Assembly: GCA_902812365.1 (NCBI GenBank) | Contig: CADDZC010000008.1 | Coordinates: 1 to 64,000 of the forward strand | From: Acidobacteriota bacterium | Lineage (GTDB): Bacteria > Acidobacteriota > Terriglobia > UBA7540 | Direction of reading: 5' to 3' | Length of the DNA stretch: 64,000 nt | In this document: positions 7,862-29,142 of the stretch, in pieces | Numbering within the stretch: the stretch's first letter is position 1 | How the letters are laid out: each line of letters starts with the position of its first letter | Position numbers and translations under genes: made by a program | The notes under the pieces: model-generated | Database searches by the model: none | What the model saw: the letters and a program-made list of their open reading frames with translations, nothing else | What the model was told of the DNA's origin: nothing

Positions 7862-9328
7862 CTACTCGAGGCGTTTACCGTTGGCGTCGTACTCTTCGAC
7901 CGGACCGTACTTTTCGAGCACCGGCTTGATCTGCTTGCCGTCGCCCACACAGACCAACTGAAGGTGATCGAGGTCGACGTACTTCCGGGCGGCCCGCTGC
8001 ACGTCTTCCGGGCTGACTTGAGCCACGGCGGCGGGGTAGCGATCCCAATAGTCCTCGGGCAAGTTGTAGTAACGGACGAGCAGCCAGTCATGGAGCAAGG
8101 CAAACGGGTGCTCGAGAGAGAGGGCAAAGCTGGCCACCATGGCGTGTCGCGCTTCGTCGAGCTCGCTTTCGGCCACTTTCTGATCGCGAATGCGCTTGAA
8201 CTCGTACATCAGCTCGTGCAGAGACCCGTCGGTGACGGCGGTTCGCACTTGGGTCGACGCCTGCCAAGCCTCCCGATAAATATCGTCGCCCACGGAACTA
8301 TAAGCTCCGTAGGTATAGCCTTTCTCCTCGCGCAGATTGAGAAAAAGCCGGCCTGTCGGCCCGCCGCCGAGAATGCGATTCATGACCGTCAGAGCCACAT
8401 AGTCCGGGTCGATCCGCCGGGCGCCATAATCGCCCGCCACAATGTTGGTTTGCACCGAACCCGGGCGATCAACCAGGTAGATTTTGTACGCTGCAGGCGG
8501 CGGCAGCGGACTCAAATCCGTTCTGGGCAGCGCCCGGTTCTTCCAGTCTCCAAAATACCTCCGGATCAACTCCACGACCTCATCCGCCTGAACGTCGCCG
8601 ACGACACCGAGAATGGCGTTGTTCGGAACGTAGTATTCATCGTGGAAGGTCCTGAGATTGTCGCGCGTCACGGCATGAATGGAATCCTCGGTGGGGGCCA
8701 TCGCGGCCGCCGGAAAGGCCCGATAGAGGACTCGGCGGAACGTCTGCTGGCCGAGAAAATAAGGTTCCGAGCGTTCCTGCTGGAGCTCGGCCAGTTGCCG
8801 CTTCTTGTACTTGTCCAGTTCATCGGGGGGGAACGTCGGGTTGAGGGTGATATCGCTCATGAGCTCCAAGATGCGATCCGTAGTGGTGGCGAGGCCGGAA
8901 CCGTTGATCTGGCTGAGGCTCGAGCCGAAGGCCGCCGACGCATCCAGCGTGGCCCCGATACCGTCCACATCGCCGGCGAGCTGAGCGCTCGAGCGGTGCG
9001 TTGTGCCCTCGCGGAGCATGTCGGCCGTAAATTTGGCAAGGCCGGGCAGGTTCTTCGGGTCATTGAGCGCCCCGGCCTTGATCCAAAGACTCAGTGAGAC
9101 GGTGGGCAGTTTGTGCTGCTCGAGAACCAGCACCGTCAGCCCGTTCCCCAGCGTCAACTCTTTCGGCCGCGGCAGCTTGACCCGCAGGATTTCCTTGCTG
9201 ACTGGCGCCCGATTCAGGCGTTCAACCTTAGAGATGGAGGTCTCATGGTGCTCTTCGCCCTGCGCGCAGAGCCCCGGCGCAAGCGTCAAAAGCAGCCCAA
9301 TAAGCGTCGCCGATGTGTGTTGCCTCAT
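7862..9328 (-). CDS. M16 peptidase-like protein, non-catalytic partner
   Basis: Secreted or periplasmic M16 family subunit of 488 residues with a signal peptide (MRQHTSATLIGLLLTLAPGLCAQ). Where an active subunit has HxxEH this protein has LAKFTADM, so it cannot bind zinc in the usual way. It keeps the C-terminal REEKGYTYGAYSSV, the Arg/Tyr element that typifies the substrate-binding partner of two-protein M16 enzymes. It follows the catalytic subunit gene with a gap of 27 bases on the same strand, so the two should form a heterodimer. The substrate is unknown, and a role in the polysaccharide locus is not evident. Confidence 0.9.
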   Translation of the reverse strand: MRQHTSATLIGLLLTLAPGLCAQGEEHHETSISKVERLNRAPVSKEILRVKLPRPKELTLGNGLTVLVLEQHKLPTVSLSLWIKAGALNDPKNLPGLAKFTADMLREGTTHRSSAQLAGDVDGIGATLDASAAFGSSLSQINGSGLATTTDRILELMSDITLNPTFPPDELDKYKKRQLAELQQERSEPYFLGQQTFRRVLYRAFPAAAMAPTEDSIHAVTRDNLRTFHDEYYVPNNAILGVVGDVQADEVVELIRRYFGDWKNRALPRTDLSPLPPPAAYKIYLVDRPGSVQTNIVAGDYGARRIDPDYVALTVMNRILGGGPTGRLFLNLREEKGYTYGAYSSVGDDIYREAWQASTQVRTAVTDGSLHELMYEFKRIRDQKVAESELDEARHAMVASFALSLEHPFALLHDWLLVRYYNLPEDYWDRYPAAVAQVSPEDVQRAARKYVDLDHLQLVCVGDGKQIKPVLEKYGPVEEYDANGKRLE

Positions 9329-9355
9329 GGTGAGTCTCTCCGCAAGCCGCCGCGT

Positions 9356-10720
9356 TTACTTTCCCGCCGTCGCCATCGAGCCACCCGCCGCGGGCAAATC
9401 AATAACCTCGGCCAGCTCCCGATCAATCAAATATTTTTCCGCGCTCTGTTTCACCTGATCGGCGGTGACAGCGTTGAACTTGTCGACGATTGTGTTGATG
9501 AGGTTCGGATCATTGAAATTGACCGCGAAATCACCGATTTGAATGGCCGTCCACAGGTCGGTCTGGCGACTCTGGATTTGCTGGTGCAGGAATTGCAGCC
9601 GGGCTTTTTCCAACTCTGCGGCCGTAATACCGTCCTTTTGCACGGCCGCAATATCCTCGCAAACGGCCTGCTCAACGTCCTCGGGTTTCACGCCGGGCCG
9701 CGCAAAGACGTAGATGTAGAAAAGGCTCGGCCCGCGGCGAAAATCGGCGTTGACGAAAACCTGCGTGGCCAGCTGCTTTTCCTTGACGAGATGTTGGTAC
9801 AGCCGCGAGCTCTGACCGGTGCCCAACACCTTCTCCAGAACCTGCATGGCATAGTTCCCGGGCGTGTTACCCGGCGGAATGTGATAGGCCATAATGATGA
9901 GTGGCGTGCGAGCCAGGGGGTCGCGGATGACTTCTCTCCGCTCGCCGTAATGCTCCGGTTCGGCGAGGTCAACGCGCGGCGGCGGCGGCTGAGACGGAAT
10001 GTCTCCAAAATACTTCTTGACCTTCTCCATGGTCTCAGCCGGATCGAGATCGCCGACCAGCGTCAGCACGGCGTTGTCGGGGGCGTAGTAGGTGCGGAAG
10101 AAGTCGCGTACGTCCTCCACGCTGGCGGCGTTTAAGTCGGCCATCTCGCCAATGGTCGAGTGCTTGTAGGCGAAGTTGTCGTAAGCGAGATTCTCGATTT
10201 CCAAAAAGGCCTTGCCATAGGGCTGATTGTCAATCCCCAGGCGCCGCTCTTCTTGGACGGCGTTGCGTTGATTGTCGAGATTGGCCTGGTTAACGTTGAG
10301 CGCGCGCATGCGGTCGCTTTCCAAAAACAGCGCCAGATCGAGCTGGTTCTTGGGCAACGCCTCAAAATAGGTGGTGCGGTCCGTGTTCGTCGTCCCGTTC
10401 ATGTCGCCGCCGTTGTTAAAGATCAAAATAAAGTGTTCGCCCTTGCCGACGTTCTTCGAGCCCTCGAACATCATGTGCTCAAACAAGTGCGCGAATCCGG
10501 TGCGACCCGGGCGTTCGTTGCGTGACCCTACGTTATAGCAAACATCGATGCCGAAAATTGGGGCCGTGTGATCCGGCACAATGATGACACGCAACCCGTT
10601 TCCCAGCCGTTGGTCGGTCATATCGACGTGGGGGAGGCGCGGCACCGCAGCCGCGAACATCTGCACGGCTCCCAGAATCCCTGCCCCCGCTACCGCACCC
10701 CACCTGCGGTACTTTTTCAT
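9356..10720 (-). CDS. M16 zinc metallopeptidase, catalytic subunit
   Basis: Zinc peptidase of 454 residues with signal peptide. The inverted zinc motif HLFEH is at residues 78-82, and the third ligand lies in the EE pair at 158-159, the normal spacing for M16. GFAHLFEHMMFEGSKN and NVNQANLDNQRNAVQEE match the M16B group. It is the first gene of a pair with the inactive partner at 7862-9328 and would degrade peptides or small proteins in the periplasm. Upstream lies a roughly 350-base AT-richer gap shared with the divergent tail-fibre-like gene. Confidence 0.94.
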   Translation of the reverse strand: MKKYRRWGAVAGAGILGAVQMFAAAVPRLPHVDMTDQRLGNGLRVIIVPDHTAPIFGIDVCYNVGSRNERPGRTGFAHLFEHMMFEGSKNVGKGEHFILIFNNGGDMNGTTNTDRTTYFEALPKNQLDLALFLESDRMRALNVNQANLDNQRNAVQEERRLGIDNQPYGKAFLEIENLAYDNFAYKHSTIGEMADLNAASVEDVRDFFRTYYAPDNAVLTLVGDLDPAETMEKVKKYFGDIPSQPPPPRVDLAEPEHYGERREVIRDPLARTPLIIMAYHIPPGNTPGNYAMQVLEKVLGTGQSSRLYQHLVKEKQLATQVFVNADFRRGPSLFYIYVFARPGVKPEDVEQAVCEDIAAVQKDGITAAELEKARLQFLHQQIQSRQTDLWTAIQIGDFAVNFNDPNLINTIVDKFNAVTADQVKQSAEKYLIDRELAEVIDLPAAGGSMATAGK

Positions 10721-11072
10721 GCCATCACCTCACCCCCTGAGAGAGCTCACGACCACCTGATCCATCGCCCGCCTGAGCCCGTCAAGCGAGCACGGATCGG
10801 GCCTGAGGCCGCGATCCTGGGAGCGTGGCATTATAGCAGAAGGGGATCGGCCCGTGCCCGATCATTGAGGCTCTCGAGGCCGGCGGGCAACCGTCGATGA
10901 CCGACAGTTGGTGCGGAGGTTTCAAGTGTGGAAAAACTCCACACTTTCGATGTCTCCTCGGGCGCTCACTCATTTTCCACAATCTAAGTTATTGATAAAT
11001 CAATGAACAATAATCTGTCTCACTTTTCTCAGTCGTCCCCACCGTCCCATTTGACAATGCTAGGCTTACCCT
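10721..11072. other. Divergent intergenic region with nested inverted repeats
   Basis: A gap of 352 bases between the divergently transcribed M16 gene and the tail-fibre-like gene. Its right half is clearly AT-richer than the surroundings. It holds a perfect inverted repeat AAGTGTGGA-5-TCCACACTT (10924-10946) and a nested pair TTATTG...CAATAA and ATTGAT-AA-ATCAAT (10989-11013). TTGACA at 11051-11056 looks like a -35 box, but no -10 box lies at the right distance before the start codon. No gene was found here. Confidence 0.6.
10924..10946. repeat. Perfect 9-bp inverted repeat, 5-base loop
   Basis: AAGTGTGGA and TCCACACTT separated by AAAAC. It has no T-run after it on either strand, so it looks more like an operator than a terminator. 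It lies about 125 bases upstream of the tail-fibre-like gene and about 205 bases upstream of the M16 gene. Confidence 0.6.
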
Positions 11073-13694
11073 ATGAGATCAAGAAGAAACCCGTTGCCGT
11101 ATGCTAGCGTGCTTCTCGTCTCCTGCTTCGCGTGGGCGGGGACGCCTCCAGACCCGCTTCCCTTGTCGCCAGTCCCCTATCGCATCATATATAAGGGAAA
11201 ACAGGTGGTCGTGATCCCAAGGGATGGGTTCGCTGAGGCGCCCGCTCCTGAACCCGGCTTAGGTGGCCAGACCTCAAGGCCCACGGGCTTCGACCAGGTC
11301 AGTGTCGCGGCTTTCGATCCGATCAATAACGCTTTGCGGATCAACGCGATGCTGACTCCTGGTGGAATTCATACTCCGACGGATGCCGACCAGGTTTTCA
11401 CCTCCATTTTTGACTCAACGAACAGCGCGATCCGAGTGAACTGCGTCGTTGGATGCACCAGTACGAGCGGGACCAGTTTTACGGCCGGTGGGGACTTAGC
11501 GGGATCAAACACCAGCCAGACGGTGGTGGGGCTGCAAGGCAGGCCGATCTCGAGCACCGCCCCGAGCTCCTCCAACCAGTTCCTTGGTTGGAACGGAACG
11601 CAGTGGGCTCCGGTTCAACCCTCCTTTCTGAACCTCTTCGGGACCGTGACGCCGGCCCAGTTACCTGCAGCCACTTCATCGCAGCAAGGCGCGATTCTTC
11701 TCACTCACGATCTGGGAGGGTCGGCTTCATCCCCGACGGTTGTCGGTCTGCAGGGCAATCCGGTTGCTTCCCTCGCACCGACGACGGGCCAAGTGTTGTC
11801 GTGGAATGGTTCGGCGTGGGCCCCAGCGACGGCCGCTGCGGGAGGCGGTACGGTGACGAGCGTCGGATTATCGTTGCCCGCAATCTTCACCGTTTCCGGG
11901 TCCCCGGTTACGTCGTCAGGGACGCTGACGGGAACATTGGTAACCCAGAACGCCAACACGGTCTTTGCCGGGCCGTCGAGCGGCGTCGCCGCCGCGCCAG
12001 CATTTCGGGCGCTCGTCGCGGCGGACATTCCTGCGCTTAATTACCAGGCCCCGCTGACGACGTTTTCAGCGCCCGCCAATCAATTCCTCACCGGCTTCAC
12101 TGCCCCTGGCACCTTTACGACAGCACAGCCGTCGTTCTCGAATCTTTCGGGCACGGCGAGCGCCACGCAGATTCCTAATCCCGCCGGCGATGTGACAGGC
12201 ACTTACACGGCTACTACGGTGAGTGGGCTGCATTTTGGTAGTACCGGCATCCCGCTGTCGACGACTGCGCCCGGCGCGGGCCAATGCCTGACCTACAACG
12301 GCACGGCCATCACCGGAGCCAGCTGCGGCAGCGGCACCGCAATCACCCTGCAAACCAACGGCACCAACAATGCCAGCCAGACCCTTTTGAACCTGGTAGC
12401 GGGCACCAACGTTACCCTGGCGAATAGCGGCGGCAATGTGACCATTAGTGCTGCGGGCGGCACAGGAGCGCCGGGTGGGGCGGCCACCCAGGTTCAGTTC
12501 AACAACAGCGGAGTGTTCGGCGGATCCGCTAACTTCACATGGAACAACACCAGTAACACTCTGACGGTCAATGGCACGGTTGCGGCGACGAGCTTCCAGA
12601 CGACTGGGGCGGGCGCTGGACAAACTTTTTGGACGACCGGCGCGATGTCCACGGCTGCTGCCGGTCAAGTAACTTGCGGCGCGAACACCGGCAACATCTT
12701 CTCCTGCTCGGACAGCACGGGGCCGATTTATCCCGTGGCTTTTCTCAATGACGGCGGCGACCTGGGCGGAGCGCAAGGAGCCGAGCGCGTGACCGGACTC
12801 CATTTCGGAACCGTCGGTATCGCGCTGAGCGCGACGGCTCCGACTTCAGGTCAGTTCCTTCAATACAACGGAACCAACATCGTGGGCGCGGCGGCGCTCT
12901 TGAATCCCATGACCACGGCGGGCGACATCATCGTCGGCGGGACAGGCGGCAGCCCGACACGGCTTGGGCTCGGAACGAGCGGGCAGTGCCTGCAGTCGAA
13001 CGGAACCACGGTGGTGTATGGCGCTTGCGGAGGAACGAGCACCGCCACGGCGCTGCAGTTCGGCATCAATCCGTCCATCAGCTTGAGCAGCACCAACCCG
13101 ACGACGGGTCAATGCCTGACTTACAACGGCACGAACATTGCTGGAGGGAGCTGCGGCTCCGGCGGCAGTTCTCTGTACATATGGCAGCCGTTTCCGAATG
13201 CGTCGGCCAGCAACCTCGCATTTAGGACGAACGGCGTGTCCGTCTCATCGATTCCGGTCGTTGCCAGTGGTACTCTTTACTTCAGCTACGTCGATATCAG
13301 CGTGAGCACGGCTGACGCGACTTCCACCGACCTCTATTCTGTGGGTATTTACGGGCCCTGCGCCCCCAACTCGGCGTCCTGTGCGGCGGTGGTCACGACG
13401 AAAGCCCAAGCGCTCACGACGGCCGGATTCGTCGAATTTGGTCCATCGCAAATCAACCAGACCACACCCATTACTCTGGCGCCGCCGCCGAGCGGACAGT
13501 ATTACTACATTGCGTGGACGGGTAATGCCGCGACGGCTCTCGTTGATTCACCCAACAGCCGGCTCTTTAGTCCGCTCTGCAACGCATACAGCGGCAACGC
13601 GACTACGGGCGGCCAGGTGCCGACTTCGATCACGATTCCAGCGGCGAGCTGGAGCAATGGCTGCGCCATGCCCATCTTCGCCTTGCACAATTAA
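11073..13694 (+). CDS. Secreted protein with phage-tail-fibre-like beta repeats
   Basis: Protein of 873 residues, not recognised as a named family. It has an N-terminal signal peptide (ASVLLVSCFAWAGTP). A duplicated element follows (FDPINNALRIN, then FDSTNSAIRVN), then a long Gly/Ser/Thr/Asn-rich region with six copies of a unit related to SGQ-x-L-x-YNGT (for example TGQCLTYNGTNIAGGSCGSG), alternating with VVGLQGNPVASLAP-like segments. GTVTSVGLSLPAIFTVSGSP and FRALVAADIP resemble repeats seen in phage tail fibres and bacterial adhesins. The last 160 residues form a separate, non-repetitive domain beginning at LYIWQPFPNA. The stop is one base before the next start, so expression is coupled to the glycosidase-like gene. 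A surface or matrix-binding role is inference. Confidence 0.75.
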   Translation: MRSRRNPLPYASVLLVSCFAWAGTPPDPLPLSPVPYRIIYKGKQVVVIPRDGFAEAPAPEPGLGGQTSRPTGFDQVSVAAFDPINNALRINAMLTPGGIHTPTDADQVFTSIFDSTNSAIRVNCVVGCTSTSGTSFTAGGDLAGSNTSQTVVGLQGRPISSTAPSSSNQFLGWNGTQWAPVQPSFLNLFGTVTPAQLPAATSSQQGAILLTHDLGGSASSPTVVGLQGNPVASLAPTTGQVLSWNGSAWAPATAAAGGGTVTSVGLSLPAIFTVSGSPVTSSGTLTGTLVTQNANTVFAGPSSGVAAAPAFRALVAADIPALNYQAPLTTFSAPANQFLTGFTAPGTFTTAQPSFSNLSGTASATQIPNPAGDVTGTYTATTVSGLHFGSTGIPLSTTAPGAGQCLTYNGTAITGASCGSGTAITLQTNGTNNASQTLLNLVAGTNVTLANSGGNVTISAAGGTGAPGGAATQVQFNNSGVFGGSANFTWNNTSNTLTVNGTVAATSFQTTGAGAGQTFWTTGAMSTAAAGQVTCGANTGNIFSCSDSTGPIYPVAFLNDGGDLGGAQGAERVTGLHFGTVGIALSATAPTSGQFLQYNGTNIVGAAALLNPMTTAGDIIVGGTGGSPTRLGLGTSGQCLQSNGTTVVYGACGGTSTATALQFGINPSISLSSTNPTTGQCLTYNGTNIAGGSCGSGGSSLYIWQPFPNASASNLAFRTNGVSVSSIPVVASGTLYFSYVDISVSTADATSTDLYSVGIYGPCAPNSASCAAVVTTKAQALTTAGFVEFGPSQINQTTPITLAPPPSGQYYYIAWTGNAATALVDSPNSRLFSPLCNAYSGNATTGGQVPTSITIPAASWSNGCAMPIFALHN

Positions 13695-13695
13695 T

Positions 13696-16600
13696 ATGAA
13701 AACGCTCTCAATTCTCGCGGTATTGATACTCGGCTTCGGAAGCGCCCGAGGCGTTCAACTGGATGATTTCGGCGGCAACATGGCGGAATCCTGCCCAGCC
13801 CCGCTCCACCGCGTGACGGCGACCTGCTCGCAATCCGGCACCACGCAGACCTGCACGATCGCCAACGCGACCATCACCGCGGATCCGAACTACTCGCTCG
13901 ATTACGATGTGACGATCTCGTCGCCCGCTATGTCGTTCATTATCGGGGTGGGCGAGCCGATGTTGATTGGCGGGACCGGAACGGCGCTGGACTGGGTCTA
14001 CGTGGCGCCGAACCTGGACTACAAAAACGGCGCGAGCATCATTTCCGCCGTCAACACCAGCACGGGAGCGATTACGCTCACCGCCTATGCCTCCGCGACC
14101 GTTGCCGCGACGGCAGGATGGATTGAGCCAGGACGGTATTACGATCCGTTTTCCCAGGGCACTCAAATCGGGGTCACGCCGACCGTGGCGCAATTCACCG
14201 TCAACGACGCCAACGGCAAGCCAACCTATCCGATTTGCACCCCGGAAGGGCACCGCGTATTCATCCAGGCGGTGAGTCTGGCTTGTATGTACGGAGCCTT
14301 GAGTCTATGCGGAGGGAGCTTCTCGATCACCAGCGCCAGTGCCAGCGCTGGAGTGGTGACAGCGACGCTTAACACGGCGGAGGATGTCACCCCGGGGGAG
14401 ATGGTGACGATCAGCGGCGTTTCTGGCACGGGCTTCAACCTGCCCTCCGTACAACTTCAGAGCGTCAATCAGAGCACCAACACGGTCACGTACAATGATC
14501 CTGCGGCCAGCGGCACCGGAAGCGGCGGCACACTGACTCCGATCAGTTGGGTCACGCGTCTCTACGGTGGATCCGCAACATTGGCCGCGAGCACGGAATC
14601 AGCCAAAGCGAAAGCAATTGGATTCAATACCATTGGCGAAGACTCTGAATCCTGCATTACGATCGGCGGCAGTTGTCCTACAGCGAATATTATGCCCTCG
14701 CTGAACATTTTCGGGACGACCGTAGCGAGCCCGAGCCTCTACAGCAGCTCCAATCTGTGGGGGTACATTAGCGCGCCCGTGAAGGATTTTAGCATCACCC
14801 TGACCAGCGTCTATCCGCAGGGAGGTGTCTTCAATTATCCCGGCGGTGAGTTGGATTGGTTTAATCCTGAATTTCCTACCTATTTTCGCTCCGCTTTTGG
14901 AAATACGCCGTTGACGATCAATCCGGCTCCCGTCTCATCACCCTCGATCATTGCGAACATGTCCGACGATTCCGACTTTCAGCACATCACGGACGGCTCA
15001 GGGCTGTTTCGAGGCTATGGCAACAGCCTGAACGGGAATGGCGGCGGTCAGTTCTGGCATGTGGGAGCGCTGTTGGCGGTGGCTTCGCCACACCAAAGCG
15101 TCAGTAATCATCAGAACTATGGCAATCCGCCGCCACCGTATCTTTTCACCAACACCACGGTCTATTCGAAGACGTTGTCAACGACGGCTCCGGCCGGATG
15201 CTGGAGCGCGACGGCGTCAACTACGCCCGCCGGAAGTCCGGTTGGCCCCACTTACGCGGCTTGTACTTGGCCGGATTGGGTGAGGAACTGGTACGGCACC
15301 GTGGCGGCGATGAACGCGGCCTGGGGGTCGAACTACACCACGTTCGGATCGAGCGAAACCGTGGTCACGGGAGCGACCGTGGGCACGGGCAACGGCACGG
15401 CGACGGCGTTCAGCGCGGCGCTCGCCGGACATGCAGGTTCGCCGGATATCACTCCAACTACCGTGCAGATTTATCTGACGCCAAGCGGCGGTTCACCCAC
15501 GCTGATTGCCGGTGATTGCCCAACCACCATTGAGGCAGGGTGTCCAAGCGGAACGGCAGGCACAGGGCAGTTTCTCCCTAATACTACAACCCTGCGAGGA
15601 TTCCCAGCCGGTCACTGGGTAGAGAAAGGCTATACGTTCATCGACCCTAACAACGATGTTGAGGTGGTCACTTCTGCGCGCGGCGTGACGGGAACTTCAG
15701 CTCCGGCTTGGCCGGCGGCTCCGTGCAACGGGCAAACGACGACGAGCGGCACCGTGACCTTCACCTGCATCGGCCCGGCGTTGACAAGCGCGAGCACCAT
15801 CAATTACTCCACCGGAGCGCTCTCGCTAACCTTTTCTTCTCCACCTCCGAGCGGCGTGGCGATCACCGTCTCCTACACCTGGGGCGGATGGGCCAGCGGC
15901 ATCGGCACCGGACTTGCGGACGAATCCGGCACCGGCTCCTGGGTGGGCACCAACCCGATTTGCGTGATCAACCCTCCGGCGTGGCAGGCAAATCACTCCT
16001 ACACGGCCTATCAGGCGATTCCGGTGAGCGATCCGGCCACCGGAGCCTGGATGCTGCCGATTACGACGGGGACTTCCGGCGCGACGGATCCGAGCGTGCC
16101 AACCACCGTCGGAACCAAAGTGGCCGATGGCAGCGTAACTTGGGCGAGCATCGGAGGGCCGGTGTGCGCCGTGAGCGGAGGCTATCTGCCAGTGGCCATC
16201 AACGCCAATCAAAACTGGGCGATTGACGTAACGAATTGGGCGGGGCAATTGATGTATGAGTATGGAAACGCCCTACAAGTTGTCAATCATCAGCTTTGGC
16301 CGGACTTGATCAATCTGGGAGTCAATTTCAGCCTGCAGAGCTATGACGTGCCGATGTACGCTCCGATGCTCCAAGCCGTCAACGCCACGAGCGACGGAGC
16401 CTTTACGGGGCAATTTCCCACGCCGGATACTGTTGATGCGATGGGAACCCAGAAGTATATTTATCTCACACAGTTTTATCACAAGCCGATACTGAATGAG
16501 ATGTTTATGTGGGTCTCGAGCGGTTGGGATATGACTCAGGTGTGTACGACCTGGACAACGTGGTTGTGTGCCCCAAGTCTCGCGGCGCGATCTCAATTGT

Positions 16601-16950
16601 GGTATACCATTGTCAGTAATGAGCTGAACCTACCGGGATTCTCTGGAGTCAACCAGAACGCGGGAGTCACCTGGTTCGGCAACATCTCCGCTCAGAATCA
16701 AGGGTTCGGCTACGAGACGCATCTAGGGAACCTGCTCAACGGGGTCGACAATGTTAGCGCCACGGTTCCATGCGCGCCGCCCTTTTCCAACCGAACGTGC
16801 GGCGGCGAGCTTCCGAGCGCCCCTTGGAATGGGCAAGACGTCATCAATGGACTGAATAAGCAGGCTCTCACTTTGTGGCTAACTGGCACGCCTTACGGAA
16901 CGGCGCATGACGGCGCGTCGGTGGTAAGCGGAGGGACGAGTTTAAAATAG
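13696..16950 (+). CDS. Secreted glycoside-hydrolase-like protein with inserted domain
   Basis: Protein of 1084 residues with signal peptide MKTLSILAVLILGFGSARG. The ATG at 13696 was chosen because the longer frame upstream overlaps the previous gene with arginine-rich, out-of-frame sequence. IGFNTIGEDSES, the segment around 420-430 (SDDSDF) and MNAAWGSNYTTF near 540 recall TIM-barrel glycosidases of the agarase/GH50 or GH42 kind. Between about 550 and 740 a beta-rich insert is present, containing GTGNGTATAFSAALAG. The barrel resumes at GLADESG and includes HKPILNEMFMW with Glu935 on a late strand. It is a paralog of the lipoprotein at 18171-20717. Substrate unknown; the cell's own polysaccharide is a plausible one by location. 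Confidence 0.7.
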   Translation: MKTLSILAVLILGFGSARGVQLDDFGGNMAESCPAPLHRVTATCSQSGTTQTCTIANATITADPNYSLDYDVTISSPAMSFIIGVGEPMLIGGTGTALDWVYVAPNLDYKNGASIISAVNTSTGAITLTAYASATVAATAGWIEPGRYYDPFSQGTQIGVTPTVAQFTVNDANGKPTYPICTPEGHRVFIQAVSLACMYGALSLCGGSFSITSASASAGVVTATLNTAEDVTPGEMVTISGVSGTGFNLPSVQLQSVNQSTNTVTYNDPAASGTGSGGTLTPISWVTRLYGGSATLAASTESAKAKAIGFNTIGEDSESCITIGGSCPTANIMPSLNIFGTTVASPSLYSSSNLWGYISAPVKDFSITLTSVYPQGGVFNYPGGELDWFNPEFPTYFRSAFGNTPLTINPAPVSSPSIIANMSDDSDFQHITDGSGLFRGYGNSLNGNGGGQFWHVGALLAVASPHQSVSNHQNYGNPPPPYLFTNTTVYSKTLSTTAPAGCWSATASTTPAGSPVGPTYAACTWPDWVRNWYGTVAAMNAAWGSNYTTFGSSETVVTGATVGTGNGTATAFSAALAGHAGSPDITPTTVQIYLTPSGGSPTLIAGDCPTTIEAGCPSGTAGTGQFLPNTTTLRGFPAGHWVEKGYTFIDPNNDVEVVTSARGVTGTSAPAWPAAPCNGQTTTSGTVTFTCIGPALTSASTINYSTGALSLTFSSPPPSGVAITVSYTWGGWASGIGTGLADESGTGSWVGTNPICVINPPAWQANHSYTAYQAIPVSDPATGAWMLPITTGTSGATDPSVPTTVGTKVADGSVTWASIGGPVCAVSGGYLPVAINANQNWAIDVTNWAGQLMYEYGNALQVVNHQLWPDLINLGVNFSLQSYDVPMYAPMLQAVNATSDGAFTGQFPTPDTVDAMGTQKYIYLTQFYHKPILNEMFMWVSSGWDMTQVCTTWTTWLCAPSLAARSQLWYTIVSNELNLPGFSGVNQNAGVTWFGNISAQNQGFGYETHLGNLLNGVDNVSATVPCAPPFSNRTCGGELPSAPWNGQDVINGLNKQALTLWLTGTPYGTAHDGASVVSGGTSLK

Positions 16951-16971
16951 AGCGCGACGGAAGCCGCCAGG

Positions 16972-17829
16972 TTATCTTGCACCGTTCTTCCATGCCGATA
17001 AATCCCGTCCCAGTATGGTTTCCAGCTCTTCCACCTCCGGCCGGAAGATTTCCCGAAGGCGCGCCTCGGTTTCCGGCCGGATCGGTTCAAAAGCCGGCCC
17101 GCCACTGAACAGAAAGCTCCGCAGTCGCGGATTTTTCAAAGCATTGACCAGCCGAAAATGGCCGCGATTCTGAAGACCGTCGCGCACCTTTCGTGCGAGC
17201 CACGCCAGGCGCAGATTCCTGGGAGCAACCGGTATCGCGTTAACCAACTTATCGCCAGCGTCCGCGCGCGGGAGCGGAAACCTCGGGATGCCGATAAAAT
17301 CGCAGACCCGGTCAAGGAAAGCTTGCGGATCTCGCTTGAGGTCGTCGTGTAAAAGCACCAGGACCCGCTCAGAGCCAAACCGTTGCTGCCAGGCGCGCAC
17401 GTGGGTAGCATACCGCGACCATTCAAACAGGTCCGGGCGTTTTTCAATGCACTCCTCGAAACTGCCCCGAAAATACTGCCCCTCAAACGCCTTTCGATAG
17501 TGGGAATAAGCCCTGTCGACCGGGTCTCTCAAGGTGCAAATAATTTTGCAGTTCGGAATGTGCAGCGCGATGCGCCGGCGCGTCTCGGCGCCAATGAAGC
17601 AATTCGGGTCAAACTCTCCCATTGGAAGCGCGGGGTCGCAGTGGCGAAACAGAGAGGCATACCACGCGATCCCCATCGAGTAGCGATACACGAAGAACTG
17701 GGATTCCTTAACGTCCCGGGGGAGTCCGACGCGGCCAGTCAAGGCCTCATGGAGCCAGGTCGTAGCGGTGCGCGGTGGGCCAACACCAATAAAGTCCGGC
17801 AGTCTCGTTATCTTCTGGGCAAACGTCAT
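16972..17829 (-). CDS. PAPS-dependent sulfotransferase
   Basis: Enzyme of 285 residues that would transfer sulfate from PAPS to a hydroxyl or amine of a carbohydrate. The 5'-phosphosulfate-binding loop is GPPRTATTWLHEAL at residues 17-30, and the 3'-phosphate-binding segment is CTLRDPVDRAYSHY. Both are complete, so it is probably active. It lies on the minus strand between two plus-strand glycosidase-like genes, the only minus-strand gene inside that island. It suggests that the polysaccharide is sulfated. The start ATG at 17829 has only a weak GGGA upstream. Confidence 0.9.
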   Translation of the reverse strand: MTFAQKITRLPDFIGVGPPRTATTWLHEALTGRVGLPRDVKESQFFVYRYSMGIAWYASLFRHCDPALPMGEFDPNCFIGAETRRRIALHIPNCKIICTLRDPVDRAYSHYRKAFEGQYFRGSFEECIEKRPDLFEWSRYATHVRAWQQRFGSERVLVLLHDDLKRDPQAFLDRVCDFIGIPRFPLPRADAGDKLVNAIPVAPRNLRLAWLARKVRDGLQNRGHFRLVNALKNPRLRSFLFSGGPAFEPIRPETEARLREIFRPEVEELETILGRDLSAWKNGAR

Positions 17830-18170
17830 TTCGGATCCCGAGTCTAGGTTTAGGAGGAGCGATTCCCTGGGCTTGGCGCACCGGGCGCCAGCCCTGCTCC
17901 CTTAATATTTTACATGGGCCTAGGTCCTGCGATTGATCTTTCTCACCACGTACTGTATTATCCTGCGCTTCGACTTCGTAGTACGGTTCACAAGGGTAGC
18001 GGTTGACTGCAACCAGCAGCGCGAGAGCACCCCTTCGTGATCGCCGGGTGTTGATTTCCTCCTCGCGGGGCAGAGCTCGGGCCGACTCTTGCAAGAATTG
18101 ATGCGGCTTATTGCCTTCTCATCTGCTGGCTTCATTTCAATCGCTGGAACGGGGAGAGAGGACATGGTGG
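17830..18170. other. Divergent intergenic region
   Basis: A 341-base gap between the divergent sulfotransferase and lipoprotein genes. It contains an imperfect GC-rich hairpin (GGGCTTGGCGC and GGGCGCCAGCCC, 17869-17894). On the minus strand a TAAAAT lies in an AT-rich patch around 17905-17915 and could be a -10 box, but no good -35 box was seen. No coding sequence is supported here. Confidence 0.5.
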
Positions 18171-20717
18171 ATGCGGACGAGAAGGTTTAGTGTGGTCGCA
18201 GCCGAGATCATTCTGCTTTTGCTCCTCGCGGCGTGCGGCGCCGGCGAGGGTCCAACCGCCAACACGGATACCCCGCCCGCCGGAACCGGCGAGAATTCGG
18301 GCACGGGCTCAGCCGCCCCGCCACCGGCGCAGCCGCCCGGGGTAAACATTGACCAGTATGGAGGATCCGCGCTTTTGACCTGCACCGCCACCGGCTGGTT
18401 CCACCCGGAAAAGATTAGAAACCGCTGGTGGTTCTGCGACCCCGGCGGCAACGTGTTTTTCGCTGTCGCGGTCGGAGGGATCGATGCGGCCGAGCCGGCT
18501 ACCAATGACATGGGAACCAGCTACGCTGCCGTGATGAATGCTAAATATCCCAACCCGGGGGCAAGTTGGGGACCGCAGCAGAACCGTCGATTGCTTTCAT
18601 GGGGCTTTAACTCGATCGGCGAAGACGCCGTGGGCGAGGTATCTCCGCTTCAAATCTGCAACACGTGTCCCGGCTGGCCAGGGGGAGAGCAACCGGTAAA
18701 AATGCCCATTATGGTCGAGATCAGACCCGGGGTTTATGCGGCCTCGAATCTGCACAACTACGGTTCGGGTTATATGAAAGACCTGATCTATGGAGTGAAC
18801 GGGCATTACAATGCCTACCGCTCGCCGCTGGGAGATTTCTTCGATCCGACCTTTGGCCAGTGGGTGGCCGGCGAGCTGCAAAATGACCCGGTGCTGAGTC
18901 CTTATTTAAATTCCCCCTGGACGCTCGGGATTTTCTTCGACGATTCGGACCAGTTAATGGGTTTTGGAGGGGGGCCGGACTTTCCAACCTATCCGCCAGG
19001 TTATAACACCGTGGACCTCGCTTACATGCTTCTAATCGCATCGCCCGTTCAGACTTTTAACCCAAATCCAGAAGGCGGTCTCCCCGCGGTGATTTATGCG
19101 GACTCGAAGGTCTACTCCAAGACGGCCGGCGCTTCCCCGCCCGCCGTCTGCTCCATCTCAAGCCCGTGCACGCTACGTGACTACCTTTACAAAAAGTATA
19201 ACGGCAGCATTGGGGCCTTAAATGCCGCCTGGGGATCCAATTACACAACCTTCGATTCCGCTGGCCAGCCAGTTTCTGGCGAGTTGATTGGCGTCGGCGA
19301 CGGCAAGACGAACCTTTTCACTCATACGCTAGCCCGAACGCCGGTTTCGCCCGAATCGGTGTTGATCAGGGCGGGAGGAACGGCCATCGCCGGAGATTGC
19401 CCCTGGTTTGCCGGGGCCTGCCCGGCAGGACTGGCGGCCAATTCCGGAGCGATTGAGGGGGTAAGCGGCTCGCCGATAGCAACGGGAGACCGGCCCTACC
19501 TAGGCGCACTGACTCAACAGAATTGCGGCTGCTCGTTACCCTCTCAGTTGACTGATGTCGTCGTCGTCTATCACACGAACCCGGGTTTCTATTCGCAGCC
19601 CAGCAATGAACAAGGCATCGACCAAGTGGCAGGCCAAGTTATTGTCGTCCCGTCCCCTCAGCCGGACGCCCATGCCACCGGATATGACGTCTACGCCGCT
19701 TCCGAGCCGAATAGCCTGGGCTGGACCAATTTTCCTCCGCTCCGGCTGCAAGCTTCCAACGTACCCTTTGGTACGAATTGGGTCGAGCCGGCCGCGGGGT
19801 TGATCACCGAGGGTCCGATTGTTCCTCCGCCGCCCAGCTCCATCAATTACCAAGCCGGACAAATCTCCGTGGCCTTCACCACTCCGCCGGCGCCCGGAAC
19901 CCCCATCACCGTCAACTACACCGCCAACGGCTGGATGTACGGCAGCGGACTGATGGACGAGGATGGCCGGCACACGCAATGGTTGGGGACAAACTTTAAG
20001 TGTCTCCAAGCTGCGGCCGTATGCGACGGCAAAGGTTACCCGGCGCCCGATGCCCGCCCCGCCGTGGGCGCCGACCTGGATGCCTGGATCTCTCAGTTTT
20101 CGGCCGAGTATTTTTCCACCATCCACGCGGCCATGAAAAAGTACGCGCCCCATGTCTCTTATCTCGGCCTGGATACCATCGGCGCCTGGGCCGCTCCCGC
20201 CCGCAAAGAAATTCTGGAGGGCGCGGCTCCTTACGTGGATGCCGTTTTTACTCAATGGTACGCGTTCGCCCCCAACAGCCAGCAGGAGCTGGATTATATG
20301 GAACAGTATCTCGGGGATAAGCCGCTTATGAACTTTCTAACTATGGCGGCGAATCCGGATTCCTGCCTGTGGCGACATCCCAACCCGCCTGCCCAGTTTG
20401 CCACTCAGCAGGCCCGCGGCCAGGCGTATGCCAGCACCATGAGCGGAATGCTGACCCAGATGCACGTCTCTTCAACCGGGACTTATCCCTGGATCGGATC
20501 CGTCTGGTGGGCTCTGGTCGATTCCTGGGGCGAGAAGGCGGATTGGGGACTGATCTCCCTCGAGGACAATCCGTATGATGGCGTGTGCGACAAAACCGCC
20601 AAGACGGTCGACCAATGGGGCTATCCCTGTGGCGGCGAGGAGAAAAACTACGGGGACGTCATCACCCCCGTTAAGCAGGCCAATAAAATCTGGCTGAACG
20701 TGCTGACCCCACAGTAG
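18171..20717 (+). CDS. Lipoprotein, glycoside-hydrolase-like paralog of 13696-16950
   Basis: Protein of 848 residues. The ATG at 18171 gives a clean lipoprotein signal (VVAAEIILLLLLAACG) with lipobox LAAC followed by a Gly/Pro/Ser linker. The catalytic-type region starts with RNRWWFCDPGGNVFFAVAVGG, then WGFNSIGEDAVGE, TLGIFFDDSDQL (257-260 DDSD) and LNAAWGSNYTTFDS near 351, like agarase/GH50-type barrels. A beta-rich insert spans about 362-590, then LMDEDG, YLGLDTIGAW, and a C-terminal WWALVDSW with ADWGLISLEDNPYDG. The late strand reads DKPLMNFLTM, with Phe722 where the paralog has Glu935. It may be inactive or use other residues. It would sit on the outer membrane or periplasmic face. Family placement is from motif memory. 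Confidence 0.7.
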   Translation: MRTRRFSVVAAEIILLLLLAACGAGEGPTANTDTPPAGTGENSGTGSAAPPPAQPPGVNIDQYGGSALLTCTATGWFHPEKIRNRWWFCDPGGNVFFAVAVGGIDAAEPATNDMGTSYAAVMNAKYPNPGASWGPQQNRRLLSWGFNSIGEDAVGEVSPLQICNTCPGWPGGEQPVKMPIMVEIRPGVYAASNLHNYGSGYMKDLIYGVNGHYNAYRSPLGDFFDPTFGQWVAGELQNDPVLSPYLNSPWTLGIFFDDSDQLMGFGGGPDFPTYPPGYNTVDLAYMLLIASPVQTFNPNPEGGLPAVIYADSKVYSKTAGASPPAVCSISSPCTLRDYLYKKYNGSIGALNAAWGSNYTTFDSAGQPVSGELIGVGDGKTNLFTHTLARTPVSPESVLIRAGGTAIAGDCPWFAGACPAGLAANSGAIEGVSGSPIATGDRPYLGALTQQNCGCSLPSQLTDVVVVYHTNPGFYSQPSNEQGIDQVAGQVIVVPSPQPDAHATGYDVYAASEPNSLGWTNFPPLRLQASNVPFGTNWVEPAAGLITEGPIVPPPPSSINYQAGQISVAFTTPPAPGTPITVNYTANGWMYGSGLMDEDGRHTQWLGTNFKCLQAAAVCDGKGYPAPDARPAVGADLDAWISQFSAEYFSTIHAAMKKYAPHVSYLGLDTIGAWAAPARKEILEGAAPYVDAVFTQWYAFAPNSQQELDYMEQYLGDKPLMNFLTMAANPDSCLWRHPNPPAQFATQQARGQAYASTMSGMLTQMHVSSTGTYPWIGSVWWALVDSWGEKADWGLISLEDNPYDGVCDKTAKTVDQWGYPCGGEEKNYGDVITPVKQANKIWLNVLTPQ

Positions 20718-20736: not shown

Positions 20737-20813
20737 GGGCAAAGTCTCGTTGCCCGGAAGAAGGTATCAGGTGCGCCATGCCCCGGGGCATGGCGCACCT
20801 GCGCGGCAACGAG
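20737..20813. terminator. Nested palindromes between convergent genes
   Basis: Contains a perfect 34-base palindrome (20768-20801, 17-base arms beginning CAGGTGCGCC, no loop) framed by CTCGTTGCC (20746-20754) and GGCAACGAG (20805-20813). To its left is GGGCAA-7-TTGCCC (20737-20755), a member of the inverted-repeat class seen in other gaps of this locus. It lies between the convergent lipoprotein and FkbM genes, which fits a bidirectional transcription stop. It has no T-run. Confidence 0.65.
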
Positions 20814-20823
20814 GGGGAATGGC

Positions 20824-21678
20824 TCACTCGAATGGAAGCGCCACCAAATTGAAGAACTCGTATCGAGCCACCTCAGAGAGGTCGCTCAGAGGATGGATTC
20901 CCCTCCACCCGAAACGGTAGAGACGGTATCCGAACCCTTTAACGCGCTCCACGAGACTTTGGGGGGTCGAACCGAACTGGGCCAGGGCGCAGGCGTTGAC
21001 CTCGAACAGAATGGACGGTTGGAAGCGCGTGATGGTCTTGGTGGCCCCGTCGAGAAAACGTTCTTCGGCGCCTTCGACATCGATTTTGATGAAGTCCAAA
21101 CGCGCCAGACCGTGTTCGCCGACGAAAGTGTCGAAGGTTGTAAGCTCGGTGAGCTCATTGCCGGGCTCCGAGACTCCGAGCCGGGTCTTGCCGGTGTTGC
21201 CAGTGGGTCCCCAGACCAAGGAGACGGCACCACAGGTTTCTCCCAGGGCGACTCTGTAGGTATAGACATTGCCGGCTGCATTCAGTGCGATGTTCTCCTC
21301 GAGCGCCTGGTAGGCGGGGGTGGCGGGCTCGAAGGCATAGACGGCGCCTCGAGGCCCAACGAGCCGCGAGAGCAACAGCGTGAAATAGCCGATATTCGCC
21401 CCCACGTCCGCCGCTACCCAGTCGGGCTTAACACGGCGTTTCAAAAACTTCGTTTCCGCCGTTTCATAGTGGAGGTAGTAAAGATGCCGCCCGATATGGT
21501 CCTTGCGGTCCAATTGATACCAGATTCCGTCGCGCTTCACGATCGAAGGATCATTCCACGCCCCCTGTGTCCAGGGCCAAATCTTTTCGAACACGCGCCA
21601 ACTCCCAGGATGCGGGGGAAGTAACCTTCCATAGGCGAGAAGCAGTGTGTGCCAGAACCTTGCCGAAATGTTAGCCAT
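20824..21678 (-). CDS. FkbM-family methyltransferase
   Basis: SAM-dependent methyltransferase of 284 residues that would O-methylate a sugar of the polysaccharide. The SAM site is VAADVGANIGYFTLLLSRLV, followed by AVYAFEPATPAYQALEENI; the FkbM signature LDFIKIDVEGAEERFLDG is intact. The ATG at 21678 overlaps the end of the upstream glycosyltransferase gene by eight bases and has GGCAGGG upstream; the longer frame adds no family sequence. It is the last gene of a minus-strand run. Confidence 0.9.
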   Translation of the reverse strand: MANISARFWHTLLLAYGRLLPPHPGSWRVFEKIWPWTQGAWNDPSIVKRDGIWYQLDRKDHIGRHLYYLHYETAETKFLKRRVKPDWVAADVGANIGYFTLLLSRLVGPRGAVYAFEPATPAYQALEENIALNAAGNVYTYRVALGETCGAVSLVWGPTGNTGKTRLGVSEPGNELTELTTFDTFVGEHGLARLDFIKIDVEGAEERFLDGATKTITRFQPSILFEVNACALAQFGSTPQSLVERVKGFGYRLYRFGWRGIHPLSDLSEVARYEFFNLVALPFE

Positions 21679-22750
21679 TGCCCTGCCTTGCGTTTCGGAC
21701 GCACTCCTCCGCCAAGCGGAGCACGCTTTCAATGAAAATTTCCGGTGTGAACCTGCGCGCCGCCAGTGCCGCCCTTTGCCCCACCAGCCTTGCTAAAGCT
21801 CGGTCTTCCATGAGCAGACGGATGACCCTGGCCAGTTCGGCAGGGTTCCCCGGCTCGACCAAGTATCCCGTAATCCCATGCTCGATGTAATCCTTCGCCG
21901 ATCGATCTTCGGCGACAATGACGGGCTTGCCCAGGGTCATGGCGTTGATCCAGGTCTGCTCTCCCCCGGGATGGATCATACCACCCAGCATGGGCACAAC
22001 CACCAGCGCGGCCCCCGCCATCAGGCGGAAAAAATCGTCCTGACGCACGGTCACAATTTCCACGTTTTCTGGGATCTCAATTCCCTGGAAGTGATCACGG
22101 CGAAGCGCGGCGATGACTATGCGGTAGGGCAAGCCACGCGCCGCCTCGACCAGCGTGCGGTAATCTCGCCGGGTGTCTCCGCCGGCGAAGACGTAGTCGC
22201 CTTCCTCCGGCTGGCAGGAAAACTCGTAAAGCGTGGAGTGGTAGGGCACGAACACGAATTTGGAAGCGGGGAGGCGAAGTTCGCTTGCCCATGCCGGGAT
22301 CTCATCACGGCCTTGGACAAGAGCGCGGTTCGGACCCAGTAAAGCCAAGCGCAGGCCTGCCCGCCGGAACCATCGCTCAATCGGGCTGCCGCTCACTTTA
22401 CCGAGCCAGTCGATGTAGAGAAGGGGAACCCTCTTCCGCCGCCGCACCAGTTGCAGCACCGCGAAAATCCTGGTCATACGGTCGCTCCCCGACACCACCA
22501 CGTCGTAACTTCGGCTGGCGCGGAAGAGCCTCCATGCCCACTTCAGGTCATCGCGGACGGACCGGCCTTCGGGCGCTCCCCATGTCCGGGCAACTTCCTC
22601 CCGCCATCCGGGCAGCAGCTCGACCCGGCTGATCCACATCCGATGATCGTGCTTAGGGTAAGTCGTCAGTATGCGGCAAGAAGACGTGTCCCAACCGCCG
22701 CTGGTCTGAACGGACGCTGTGCATTCTTTCGCCGTCATGAAAATCCTCAC
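21671..22750 (-). CDS. Glycosyltransferase (GT-B, group 1)
   Basis: Protein of 359 residues with a typical C-terminal GT-B domain: FVFVPYHSTLYEF, YVFAGGDTRRDYRTLVEAA, and EQTWINAMTLGKPVIVAED followed by GYLVEPGNPAELARVI. The N-terminal domain is less conserved. The start is GTG at 22750 in a GTGA overlap with the flippase stop, a sign of translational coupling; an ATG at 22738 is the alternative. It would add a sugar on the cytoplasmic face of the inner membrane. Confidence 0.85.
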   Translation of the reverse strand: MRIFMTAKECTASVQTSGGWDTSSCRILTTYPKHDHRMWISRVELLPGWREEVARTWGAPEGRSVRDDLKWAWRLFRASRSYDVVVSGSDRMTRIFAVLQLVRRRKRVPLLYIDWLGKVSGSPIERWFRRAGLRLALLGPNRALVQGRDEIPAWASELRLPASKFVFVPYHSTLYEFSCQPEEGDYVFAGGDTRRDYRTLVEAARGLPYRIVIAALRRDHFQGIEIPENVEIVTVRQDDFFRLMAGAALVVVPMLGGMIHPGGEQTWINAMTLGKPVIVAEDRSAKDYIEHGITGYLVEPGNPAELARVIRLLMEDRALARLVGQRAALAARRFTPEIFIESVLRLAEECVRNARQGNG

Positions 22751-24279
22751 ACGCCTTCCGAGCCTTCAACCCGCGGCGGGAGCGGCACGAGACAATGCAG
22801 CAATTCCTTGCATTCGGCGTAACGGTAACCTGCAAGTACTAAGAAAAGCAGCCAAGCGGCGCCGCAGGCCGGGATCGCCGCCAGGAGCCAGCGGGATTCC
22901 CAGTGAGCCGCCAGAACCGCTGCCAAGCCGGCCAAGCCCGCGAACCAGGCGTAGTCCTTCAGGGCAGAAAACTTGATACCCGTGTTGTATCGGGCGGCGA
23001 CCAAATAAGCCGCATTGGCCGCAAACTGCGAAACCGCAAAGGCCAAGGTGGCGCCGAGCAGGCGCCAGTGCGGCCACAGCATGAAAAACATGAAAACGAA
23101 GAGGCCGGTCTGGGCCAGTGTCACCCATACGGCCCGCTGTTGTTTGCCCACGCTGGTGAGCAGGGTGGCACCGAGCGAGCCGGGAACCGACAAGCCCGAG
23201 AATAAGAGGATGATGATGACCAGATGATCCAGGAAAATATATCTTGGCCCGAGCAGCATGACGAGCGGCTTGACCAGAAACATCAAGGCGCAGGTGCCCG
23301 CCATATAGACGGCGAAGATCAGGCGCAGGTGCACCGAGAACACTTGCGAGGCCGCTTGGGGTCCTTCCGAAGCCAGCACGTTGGTCAGGGCCGGCAGCAG
23401 GGTGCCGACAAAGTACTGGTTCGCCTTCCACAGCACATCTCCCATCTGGGTGATGGCGACGTATTGGCCGAGCGCCACCAAGCCGCCGAAATTCAAGATG
23501 AGGATATAATCCAGTCGGCCGGCGATCGCCGTGAGGGCACTGATTTCCTGCAGGGCCAGACTGTACCGCCAGAAATTGCGCGGCAGGAAAAAGCGGAGTG
23601 AGCCGAGTTGGCTGCGCCAGTCTTGCAGCCGCGCCAGCCGCCGCATGCCGAGCGCAAAGCTGGCTCCGGCCAAAGCGAAAAAGACGCCCCACACCAGCCC
23701 GGTATAGTGGACTCGGAGGGCAGAACGAAAGAAGAAGTAGAGCGCCGCATAGATGAGAAACGAGCCCACCGTCATGACCCGCATGAGCAGTTGCGCCCAG
23801 CCCATCTCGAGCTCGGCTTTGAGCGCGGCGCTGGCAAGGGAGAACAAAATATAGACCGGCGATAAATAGAGGAAAACCAGAAGCGGGCCCTCGCGCGTCC
23901 CAAACAGATATGTCAGCGACGACGGCCACAGGCTGGCCGCTGCGAGCCAGGGCACCAAGGCCAAAAGAATGACCAGCAGGTACGAAGCGAGAAAGGAAAG
24001 CCGCTTGTCGCCGGACAATTCGGGAATGAACTTGATGACGACGGCATCTCCACCCCAATAAAAAAGGCAGATGACGATGACCCGGTACACCATGAGCAGG
24101 CCGTAGGTTCCGACCACCTCGGGTCCGACGCGCGCCAGCAGAATGGTGGTTCCGTAACTGAACGGAACCGCCAGGACGGCGAGCCACAGGGTCCAGCGCA
24201 TTCCGGAAAGAATGCGGGCACGGAGCTCGCCGGGAACGGTGTGCATCAGTCCAGCTTCGGTTGTGACGGGCGGGGCCAT
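22747..24279 (-). CDS. Wzx-type oligosaccharide flippase
   Basis: Polytopic membrane protein of about 510 residues with 12-14 hydrophobic segments, matching the polysaccharide biosynthesis (MOP/Wzx) family that flips undecaprenyl-linked repeat units across the inner membrane. It begins with LWLAVLAVPFSYGTTILLARVGPEVVG and has a charged cytoplasmic loop around RLARLQDWRSQ. The ATG at 24279 is preferred to the TTG at 24288; the ATG at 24246 is also possible. It overlaps the following glycosyltransferase gene. It is the only flippase in the window, although two ligase/polymerase genes are present. Confidence 0.9.
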   Translation of the reverse strand: MAPPVTTEAGLMHTVPGELRARILSGMRWTLWLAVLAVPFSYGTTILLARVGPEVVGTYGLLMVYRVIVICLFYWGGDAVVIKFIPELSGDKRLSFLASYLLVILLALVPWLAAASLWPSSLTYLFGTREGPLLVFLYLSPVYILFSLASAALKAELEMGWAQLLMRVMTVGSFLIYAALYFFFRSALRVHYTGLVWGVFFALAGASFALGMRRLARLQDWRSQLGSLRFFLPRNFWRYSLALQEISALTAIAGRLDYILILNFGGLVALGQYVAITQMGDVLWKANQYFVGTLLPALTNVLASEGPQAASQVFSVHLRLIFAVYMAGTCALMFLVKPLVMLLGPRYIFLDHLVIIILLFSGLSVPGSLGATLLTSVGKQQRAVWVTLAQTGLFVFMFFMLWPHWRLLGATLAFAVSQFAANAAYLVAARYNTGIKFSALKDYAWFAGLAGLAAVLAAHWESRWLLAAIPACGAAWLLFLVLAGYRYAECKELLHCLVPLPPRVEGSEGV

Positions 24280-24402
24280 GGTGCGCAATTTAGTCAGTCT
24301 CCCTCGGGTACGGGTGGAGCGGCAGAGCCGGCGACTTTAGATCGGCATCCATTCGCTATCCTTGACGTGCGCATGGGCGGCAGAAACCCTCTGCGCCATC
24401 CT

Positions 24403-28095: not shown

Positions 28096-29142
28096 CTAGA
28101 TCTGGGGTCCGTCACGATGACGGCCTAAGCGTGCCAACCAACCCGGACGGGTTCGCTCCAATTCATTCACATAGCACAGCGTCGACTTGCGCACCGGTAG
28201 TCGGTCCCGATGGATTCGTTTTAGCCCCGCCATTCCGTCCCAGACGCCCCGCACGAACGGCCGATAGGCGGCGGTGCGCGCTGCAAAGTAGCCCATCATG
28301 AGCAATTTCGGAATTAAGTAGCGAAGAGCCGAGAGAGCCGGATAATCTTTATAGGCAGTCCAAATATAATTCCGAGTAAAGTAATACAATTGGCGACTCA
28401 GGGAGCGGCCTTGTTGCGAGGCACGGTGGCCAACGCGCACTCGCGGCGTATAAAGGATGCGAAAGCCGCGGTCGAGCAGCCGCAACACGAGATCGTCGCC
28501 TTCCGCACCGTAAAAAAGCGGCTCGTAGTAACCTCTGCATTCTTCCAACACGGTCCGCCGGAAAGCCGACGCCCCCTCGCCGAACCACAGCGTTTCAAAC
28601 TCCGTCTGGCACGCTTGTTTCCAGTATCGAGGGTGGCACCATTCGCGCAGGCGCATCTCACCCGAATCCGGATCGCAGATTTGAAAAGCAAGCACGTGAA
28701 TCTGCGGATGCTTTCCAAAGATCTCGACGATCCGGCTGACGTCCGCTGCGGACATGAACGTCACATCGTCCTCTAGAAACACCAAGATTTCGCCAGAAGC
28801 GGCAGCAATGCCCGCGTTGCGCCCCCCGCACGCGCCACGATTCCGCTCCAGTTCGATCAGGCGAACTTGCGGCCTGCTCAGGGCCGCCACTTGCCTGAGA
28901 TCGTCCTCGGAATGGTTGTCTACCACGATGATTTCCAGGTTCGGGTAGTCCTGCCCCAGTACCGAGCGCAGTGTCTCTTCGATGGTTTCTCTGCGCTTGT
29001 AGTACACGATGATGACGCTCACCCGGGGTTGGTTTCCCTCTCTCCCGAGTACGCCACTCGGTGAAAGCGACGCCAGAGGTTCGCCGCTATTAGAGAGTGC
29101 AATAGATTGTGGAGTGAATGACGCCATCACTGACCTCGGCAT
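28096..29142 (-). CDS. Glycosyltransferase family 2
   Basis: GT-A glycosyltransferase of 348 residues. VSVIIVYYKRRETIEETLRS, NRGACGGRNAGIAAASGEIL and LVFLEDDVTFM (acidic metal-binding DD) place it in the rhamnosyltransferase-like GT2 group. YGAEGDDLVLRLLDRGFRI is the late acidic acceptor motif. Either ATG at 29142 or 29127 could be used. It belongs to the minus-strand run that includes the DUF362 gene upstream. Confidence 0.88.
   Translation of the reverse strand: MPRSVMASFTPQSIALSNSGEPLASLSPSGVLGREGNQPRVSVIIVYYKRRETIEETLRSVLGQDYPNLEIIVVDNHSEDDLRQVAALSRPQVRLIELERNRGACGGRNAGIAAASGEILVFLEDDVTFMSAADVSRIVEIFGKHPQIHVLAFQICDPDSGEMRLREWCHPRYWKQACQTEFETLWFGEGASAFRRTVLEECRGYYEPLFYGAEGDDLVLRLLDRGFRILYTPRVRVGHRASQQGRSLSRQLYYFTRNYIWTAYKDYPALSALRYLIPKLLMMGYFAARTAAYRPFVRGVWDGMAGLKRIHRDRLPVRKSTLCYVNELERTRPGWLARLGRHRDGPQI

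Follow-up and report, generated by a model that had tools for sequence, protein, structure and literature searches.

Why would a bacterial exopolysaccharide (EPS) locus carry, on the strand opposite to its polysaccharide genes, three large genes for apparently exported proteins, two of them glycosidase-like? An earlier note had read these genes (P1, P2 and P4), with a sulfotransferase gene nested among them, as a module that binds, sulfates and trims the polymer at the cell surface. Acidobacteriota are abundant soil bacteria, and their polymers matter for soil structure. What EPS clusters need glycosidases for is described in one account as an open question (PMC9075953). We find that P2 and P4 belong to a family of GH50-derived, active-site-altered proteins tied to EPS loci, which is a new finding, and we give a probability of roughly 0.5 to the reading that they are catalytically remodelled surface proteins that bind or shape the cell's own EPS; binding or shaping is more likely than the usual trimming. 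The clade combines a glycosidase fold with the loss of the cutting residues and has stayed beside polymerase and flippase genes, and thereby offers a direct test of that question: if a non-cutting protein of the P2/P4 type is needed, its role would be binding or assembly rather than trimming.

The window (the whole stretch of 64,000 nucleotides analysed here) belongs to contig C8 of a 3.5-Mb genome, G000, and the relatives used for comparison are Acidobacteriota metagenome-assembled genomes (MAGs). All three plus-strand reading frames and the nested minus-strand gene were recovered as first described (Table 1), the sulfotransferase domain scoring 72.8 bits against a curated cutoff of 27. EPS genes do lie on both sides of the island, with SLBB export, epimerase, GT4, Wzy and GT4 genes at 1.5–7.8 kb on the left and FkbM, GT4, flippase, GT2, Wzy, acyltransferase and more from 20.8 to 45 kb on the right, but the immediate left neighbours are M16 peptidase genes. 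The description of the locus as exosortase-type held in part: the XrtA polysaccharide deacetylase TIGR03006 passed its cutoff (289.5 versus 276.2 bits), the only XrtA marker in the window locus to do so, whereas strong homologues of the XrtA chain-length protein (245.6/278.9 bits), the EpsB_2 glycosyltransferase (384/393.4 bits) and the tyrosine kinase (134/230.7 bits) fell below theirs. Two exosortases were detected in the genome, on contigs C62 and C12, and none in the window or elsewhere on its contig. The window's EPS locus is XrtA-like.

Table 1 Features of the island, its flanks and the element upstream of P1 (window positions unless a contig is named)
Feature	Position	Strand	Remarks
Two M16 peptidase genes	7862–10720	−	Immediate left of island; Pfam (7862–9328), purpose-built M16 model (9356–10720)
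Element upstream of P1	10924–11064	+	Inverted repeat AAGTGTGGA/TCCACACTT and conserved ~45-bp box
Element copies in G000	10924–11064; C4:52256–52391; C12:54273–54410; C51:2503–2547; C3:3820–3943; C9:20920–20996		
P1	11073–13694	+	Predicted secreted repeat protein, 873 aa
P1 C-terminal tip domain	13164–13691	+	Relatives only beside phage genes, apart from a fragment
P2	13696–16950	+	Predicted secreted GH50-like TIM-barrel protein, 1,084 aa, with inserted domains
P2 β4 motif DDSD	14965–14976	+	Replaces canonical GH50 DNE (acid/base Glu)
P2 inserted domain	15982–16146	+	Residues ~763–817; weak match to a phage head-decoration PHROG
Sulfotransferase	16972–17829	−	285 aa; Sulfotransfer_3 E = 6.4e-20, Sulfotransfer_1 E = 6e-18
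P4	18171–20717	+	Predicted lipoprotein, 848 aa from ATG 18171, GH50-like TIM barrel
P4 β4 motif DDSD	18939–18950	+	Replaces GH50 DNE
P4 SGLMDE motif	19944–19961	+	Family consensus G-x-G-[LM]-x-D-E
P4 β7 segment KPLMNFL	20319–20339	+	Leu at GH50 nucleophile Glu position
FkbM methyltransferase, GT4, flippase	20824–24288	−	EPS genes right of island

Later insertion of the island into the locus, which the earlier note had suggested, did not hold up. Its GC content (0.57–0.63) equals that of the flanks, so that comparing the base composition of 11–20.7 kb with its surroundings gave no contrast and a compositional insertion was rejected. In another genus of the same family (G001), homologues of P1 and P2, two homologues of P4 and a sulfotransferase stand ahead of a flippase, a GT4, a second sulfotransferase and Wzy; genes matching those at window positions 28096, 31489, 29197, 30233, 32726 and 38529 come further on. 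Because both genera have this island, and at matching ends of homologous EPS loci, recent insertion is unsupported, and we rejected it on this synteny. The same genome supplies the co-occurrence of P1, P2, P4 and the sulfotransferase at an EPS locus for which a search had been proposed. A further P2 homologue occurs in G204, whose GH50-like gene, on a different contig, adjoins GT2, NTase, GT4 and NodB genes. Sulfation of the polymer, one function earlier proposed for the module, is suggested only by the proximity of the sulfotransferase to the island in these two genera (G000 and G001), where it may tailor the polymer. The enzyme adjoins the island in these two only and was not found at other loci of the family, so we rejected it as a general part of such loci.

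P2 and P4 are paralogues, as had been claimed (36% identity over part of their length, E = 1e-15), and P4 has the lipobox LLAAC expected of the lipoprotein it was said to be. Although a Pfam search returned no family for either protein, their glycosidase-like character was borne out by several routes. Searching with phmmer, P4 matched GH50 agarases (E = 5.6e-12); a ten-row family profile matched the agarase Aga50D (E = 1.6e-27), and P2 matched that profile in three ordered segments (E = 1.2e-36). An AlphaFold model of P4 (mean pLDDT 73.7, pTM 0.77, with the insertion at residues 361–493 unmodelled) gave GH50 enzymes as all of its top 17 Foldseek matches in the PDB (best E 8e-16), and model and matches together place P4 in the (β/α)8 barrel of the GH50 GH-A clan, with a large insertion after β4. 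The fold and several conserved blocks are shared with Aga50D (4bq2), PfGH50B (6xj9), AgWH50C (5z6p), BpGH50 (5t3b) and Fsa16295Glu. Inspected family members with readable N-termini have apparent signal peptides or lipoboxes, which suggests that they are secreted.

The GH50 active site has been consistently replaced in this family. The proton donor of Aga50D is Glu534 and its nucleophile is Glu695, and the active site further includes Asn533 and Glu757 (PMC11079163). We counted residues in a 71-row alignment of the P2/P4 family and canonical GH50 controls. The acid/base Glu534 was present in none of 43 readable family rows, versus 24 of 26 controls, and position 533, Asn in GH50, was Asp or Glu in all 43. 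The nucleophile Glu695 was kept in 13 of 39 rows and was Asp in another 3, whereas the equivalent of Glu757, shared with GH50 β-agarases and β-1,3-glucanases, survived in 33 of 39, P4 among them. In the family profile alignment the Ser of 'DDS' falls on the Glu of 'DNE' in Aga50D; the structure 4bq4 has Gln at this Glu, which fits an active-site mutant. Both P2 and P4 have Ser at the acid/base position, and their nucleophile is Met in P2, with a Glu one residue earlier, and Leu in P4; in most members encoded between Wzy and a flippase gene (slot members) this position is hydrophobic or Thr. With both catalytic glutamates replaced in the two proteins, the claim that they trim the polymer is unsupported. 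The change is a consistent replacement rather than random decay, because the β4 motif D-D/E-x-D is conserved across the clade, as is G-x-G-[LM]-x-D-E, which lies in the insertion after β4 and is absent from canonical GH50 relatives.

These replacements mark out a clade with a distinctive genomic setting. A tree separated 44 family rows from 25 canonical GH50 sequences of the same class with an SH-aLRT of 100; P2 and its G001 counterpart form long branches, and their placement inside the GH50-like family is unsure. Scores among 399 genomes of the class fell into a strong group of roughly 20 genomes at about 220–860 bits and a canonical GH50 group that matched weakly (under about 70 bits). Of the 27 family genes for which 8 kb or more of context was available, 16 had at least three EPS genes within 10 kb, versus 0 of 25 canonical GH50 genes (Fisher p = 1.5e-6, strong but not exact, as the rows are partly related MAGs and their independence is overstated); labels for EPS genes were taken from the window's locus and applied equally to the controls. 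Nine contigs share the gene order Wzy, GH50-like gene, flippase. An EPS-locus setting was not seen for canonical GH50 relatives, and the insertion with its motif is extra to the family. The link to polysaccharide loci thus stands for the P2/P4 family, through this enrichment and the G001 module, but is not universal: 11 of the 27 had fewer than three EPS labels nearby and several had none, and orphan copies occur in several genomes of the strong group (no EPS gene was labelled within 10 kb of the copies in G342 and G383, two copies in G389 and the second copies in G321 and G280).

Two divergent pairs of GH50-like genes were seen beside this pattern. One (L133, on G312:C16) carries DDGD, with its GEF nucleophile motif intact, surrounds a GT2 gene beside Wzy and may be the pair that has changed least within the clade. 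In the other (L025/L026), flanked by NRPS/P450 genes and by sigma-54 regulators, the nucleophile Glu persists, and the one EPS gene nearby encodes SLBB export and lies at the end of L026.

We propose that the family derives from GH50 β-agarases and would be maintained mainly beside Wzx/Wzy EPS loci of Acidobacteriota. Its barrel retains the architecture of a sugar cleft, in P4 including the Glu757 equivalent, without the dyad of a retaining glycosidase, and P2 and P4 most likely hold or organise, outside the cell, the polymer made by their locus. P4 could act as a lipid-anchored EPS-binding protein. P2 could do so in secreted form; it would be expressed together with P1, and P1, a stalk protein of phage type, could serve to extend or display P2. 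As a counterpoint, the nucleophile Glu persists in a third of the family, and the conserved acidic motif may have a catalytic role. It is a tentative further step that the change from DNE to D-D/E-x-D, with the new conserved DE motif, made a dedicated EPS-assembly factor or a newly arranged enzyme out of an agarase fold. This protein would have become established between the polymerase and flippase genes of Acidobacteriota EPS loci, with a secreted stalk protein of phage type as its companion in two genera.

The strongest competitor keeps P2 and P4 active and moves the acid: an Asp of DDxD, or the DE of the clade motif, would replace Glu534, and an altered hydrolase, transglycosidase or lyase would trim or terminate nascent EPS. 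Strong conservation of the two motifs argues for a maintained active site, and the mostly kept Glu757 equivalent and the rows that retain Glu or Asp as nucleophile point the same way. Precedents from other glycosidase families exist, the families of PslG and of the PelA hydrolase domain being GH39 and GH166, which differ from GH50. Encoded in the Psl and Pel loci, respectively, these two resemble P2 and P4 in being glycosidase-fold proteins from inside EPS gene clusters, but the cited accounts describe active hydrolases (PMC9075953, PMC9894940), whereas the P2/P4 family lacks the canonical dyad. A retaining mechanism is hard to square with Leu or Met as nucleophile in P4 and P2, or with the residues of most slot members, and we consider a relocated acid possible but rather doubtful. 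For the binding reading, heparanase-2, reported as a glycosidase homologue without catalytic activity (PMC12406646), may serve as a precedent for how P2 and P4 work, by analogy from another organism and another ligand.

P1 raises the possibility of a phage contribution. The description of a repeat-built secreted protein was confirmed: its sequence shows an apparent signal peptide and a pair of 'FDxxNxAxRxN' motifs, besides five diverged stalk-like units ('..GL..P..S..AP..GQ.L.(W/Y)NG') and a C-terminal tip domain ending in ALHN. The repeat exists at the protein level, and we rejected it as direct-repeat DNA since only a single strong DNA pair was found (59 nt, 81% identity). P1 had no match in Pfam, NCBIfam or the PDB and a weak one to a PHROG of unknown function. 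Its repeats weakly match a Tunturiibacter phage tail assembly protein (47.8% over 89 aa), and relatives of its tip domain (modelled at a pLDDT of 40) stand beside a terminase gene (L202) and after a tape-measure gene (L203), a third match being a fragment. The gene after a P1 paralogue on contig C12 of G000 encodes not P2 but another secreted protein, PROP, which we guess from its sequence to be a β-propeller. The same P1–PROP pair, both members with apparent signal peptides, adjoins the portal gene (phrog_113) in prophages of three relatives (G014, G026 and G021), and in the last two a head-maturation protease (phrog_328) follows; the G014 contig ends before that point. These loci are L080 1–7727, where the contig ends after the pair, L081 7154–16180 and L084 1183–11831. 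Searches of viral contigs and phage records turned up neither PROP nor the P1 tip domain, and P1–PROP is a candidate prophage cargo pair, undescribed in the resources searched.

The label 'tail-fibre-like' suits P1, given the P1-like genes of prophages. Unlike phage tail fibres, P1 has an apparent Sec signal peptide and a seat in an EPS locus; among the scanned window genes no phage gene was recognised, and its neighbours are EPS and peptidase genes. Because its partner varies between P2 and PROP, P1 is suggested to be a carrier or stalk. In the window the start codon of P2 lies one base past the P1 stop, a spacing that suggests the coupling of the two genes earlier proposed, and the inserted domain of P2 resembles the C-terminal domain of PROP partner proteins.

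P1 and P2 might be a prophage-derived cargo pair of the lysogenic-conversion type. Phages of this bacterial family would alter the surface of their host through P1 and a secreted partner carried among the head genes, and the EPS locus would have captured one unit of this kind. The portal-linked prophage pairs, the phage neighbours of the tip-domain relatives and an upstream element common to P1 and the late operon of a resident prophage favour this origin. It would account for P1 and not for P4, however, and P2 was not found in phages; a search of viral contigs gave no match to the GH50-like family, and we rejected these proteins as viral genes. The upstream element is not specific to phages either. 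We judge such a capture unlikely. The P1 family also suggests that phages carry secreted surface proteins in this group of bacteria. That P2 and P4 scavenge, degrading foreign agar-like polysaccharide for food and lying beside an EPS locus by chance, agrees with their overall relation to GH50 but is disfavoured and highly improbable, given the lost catalytic residues and an EPS context that is strongly enriched and conserved across genera.

The element upstream of P1 spans ~140 bp, includes the inverted repeat GTGTGGA..TCCACAC and has six copies in G000 (E ≤ 1e-4). Besides P1, copies stand before its C12 paralogue, before the late operon of a prophage on C4 and before genes unrelated to these. 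In G011 it lies upstream of a P1-like gene and occurs in many copies, often near contig ends. A phage-specific late promoter was rejected because of the unrelated genes and the many G011 copies, and the element may be a promoter family or a mobile repeat. At the other end of the island, between P4 and FkbM, a perfect 17-bp palindrome (CAGGTGCGCCATGCCCC/GGGGCATGGCGCACCTG, window 20768–20801) is probably a bidirectional terminator.
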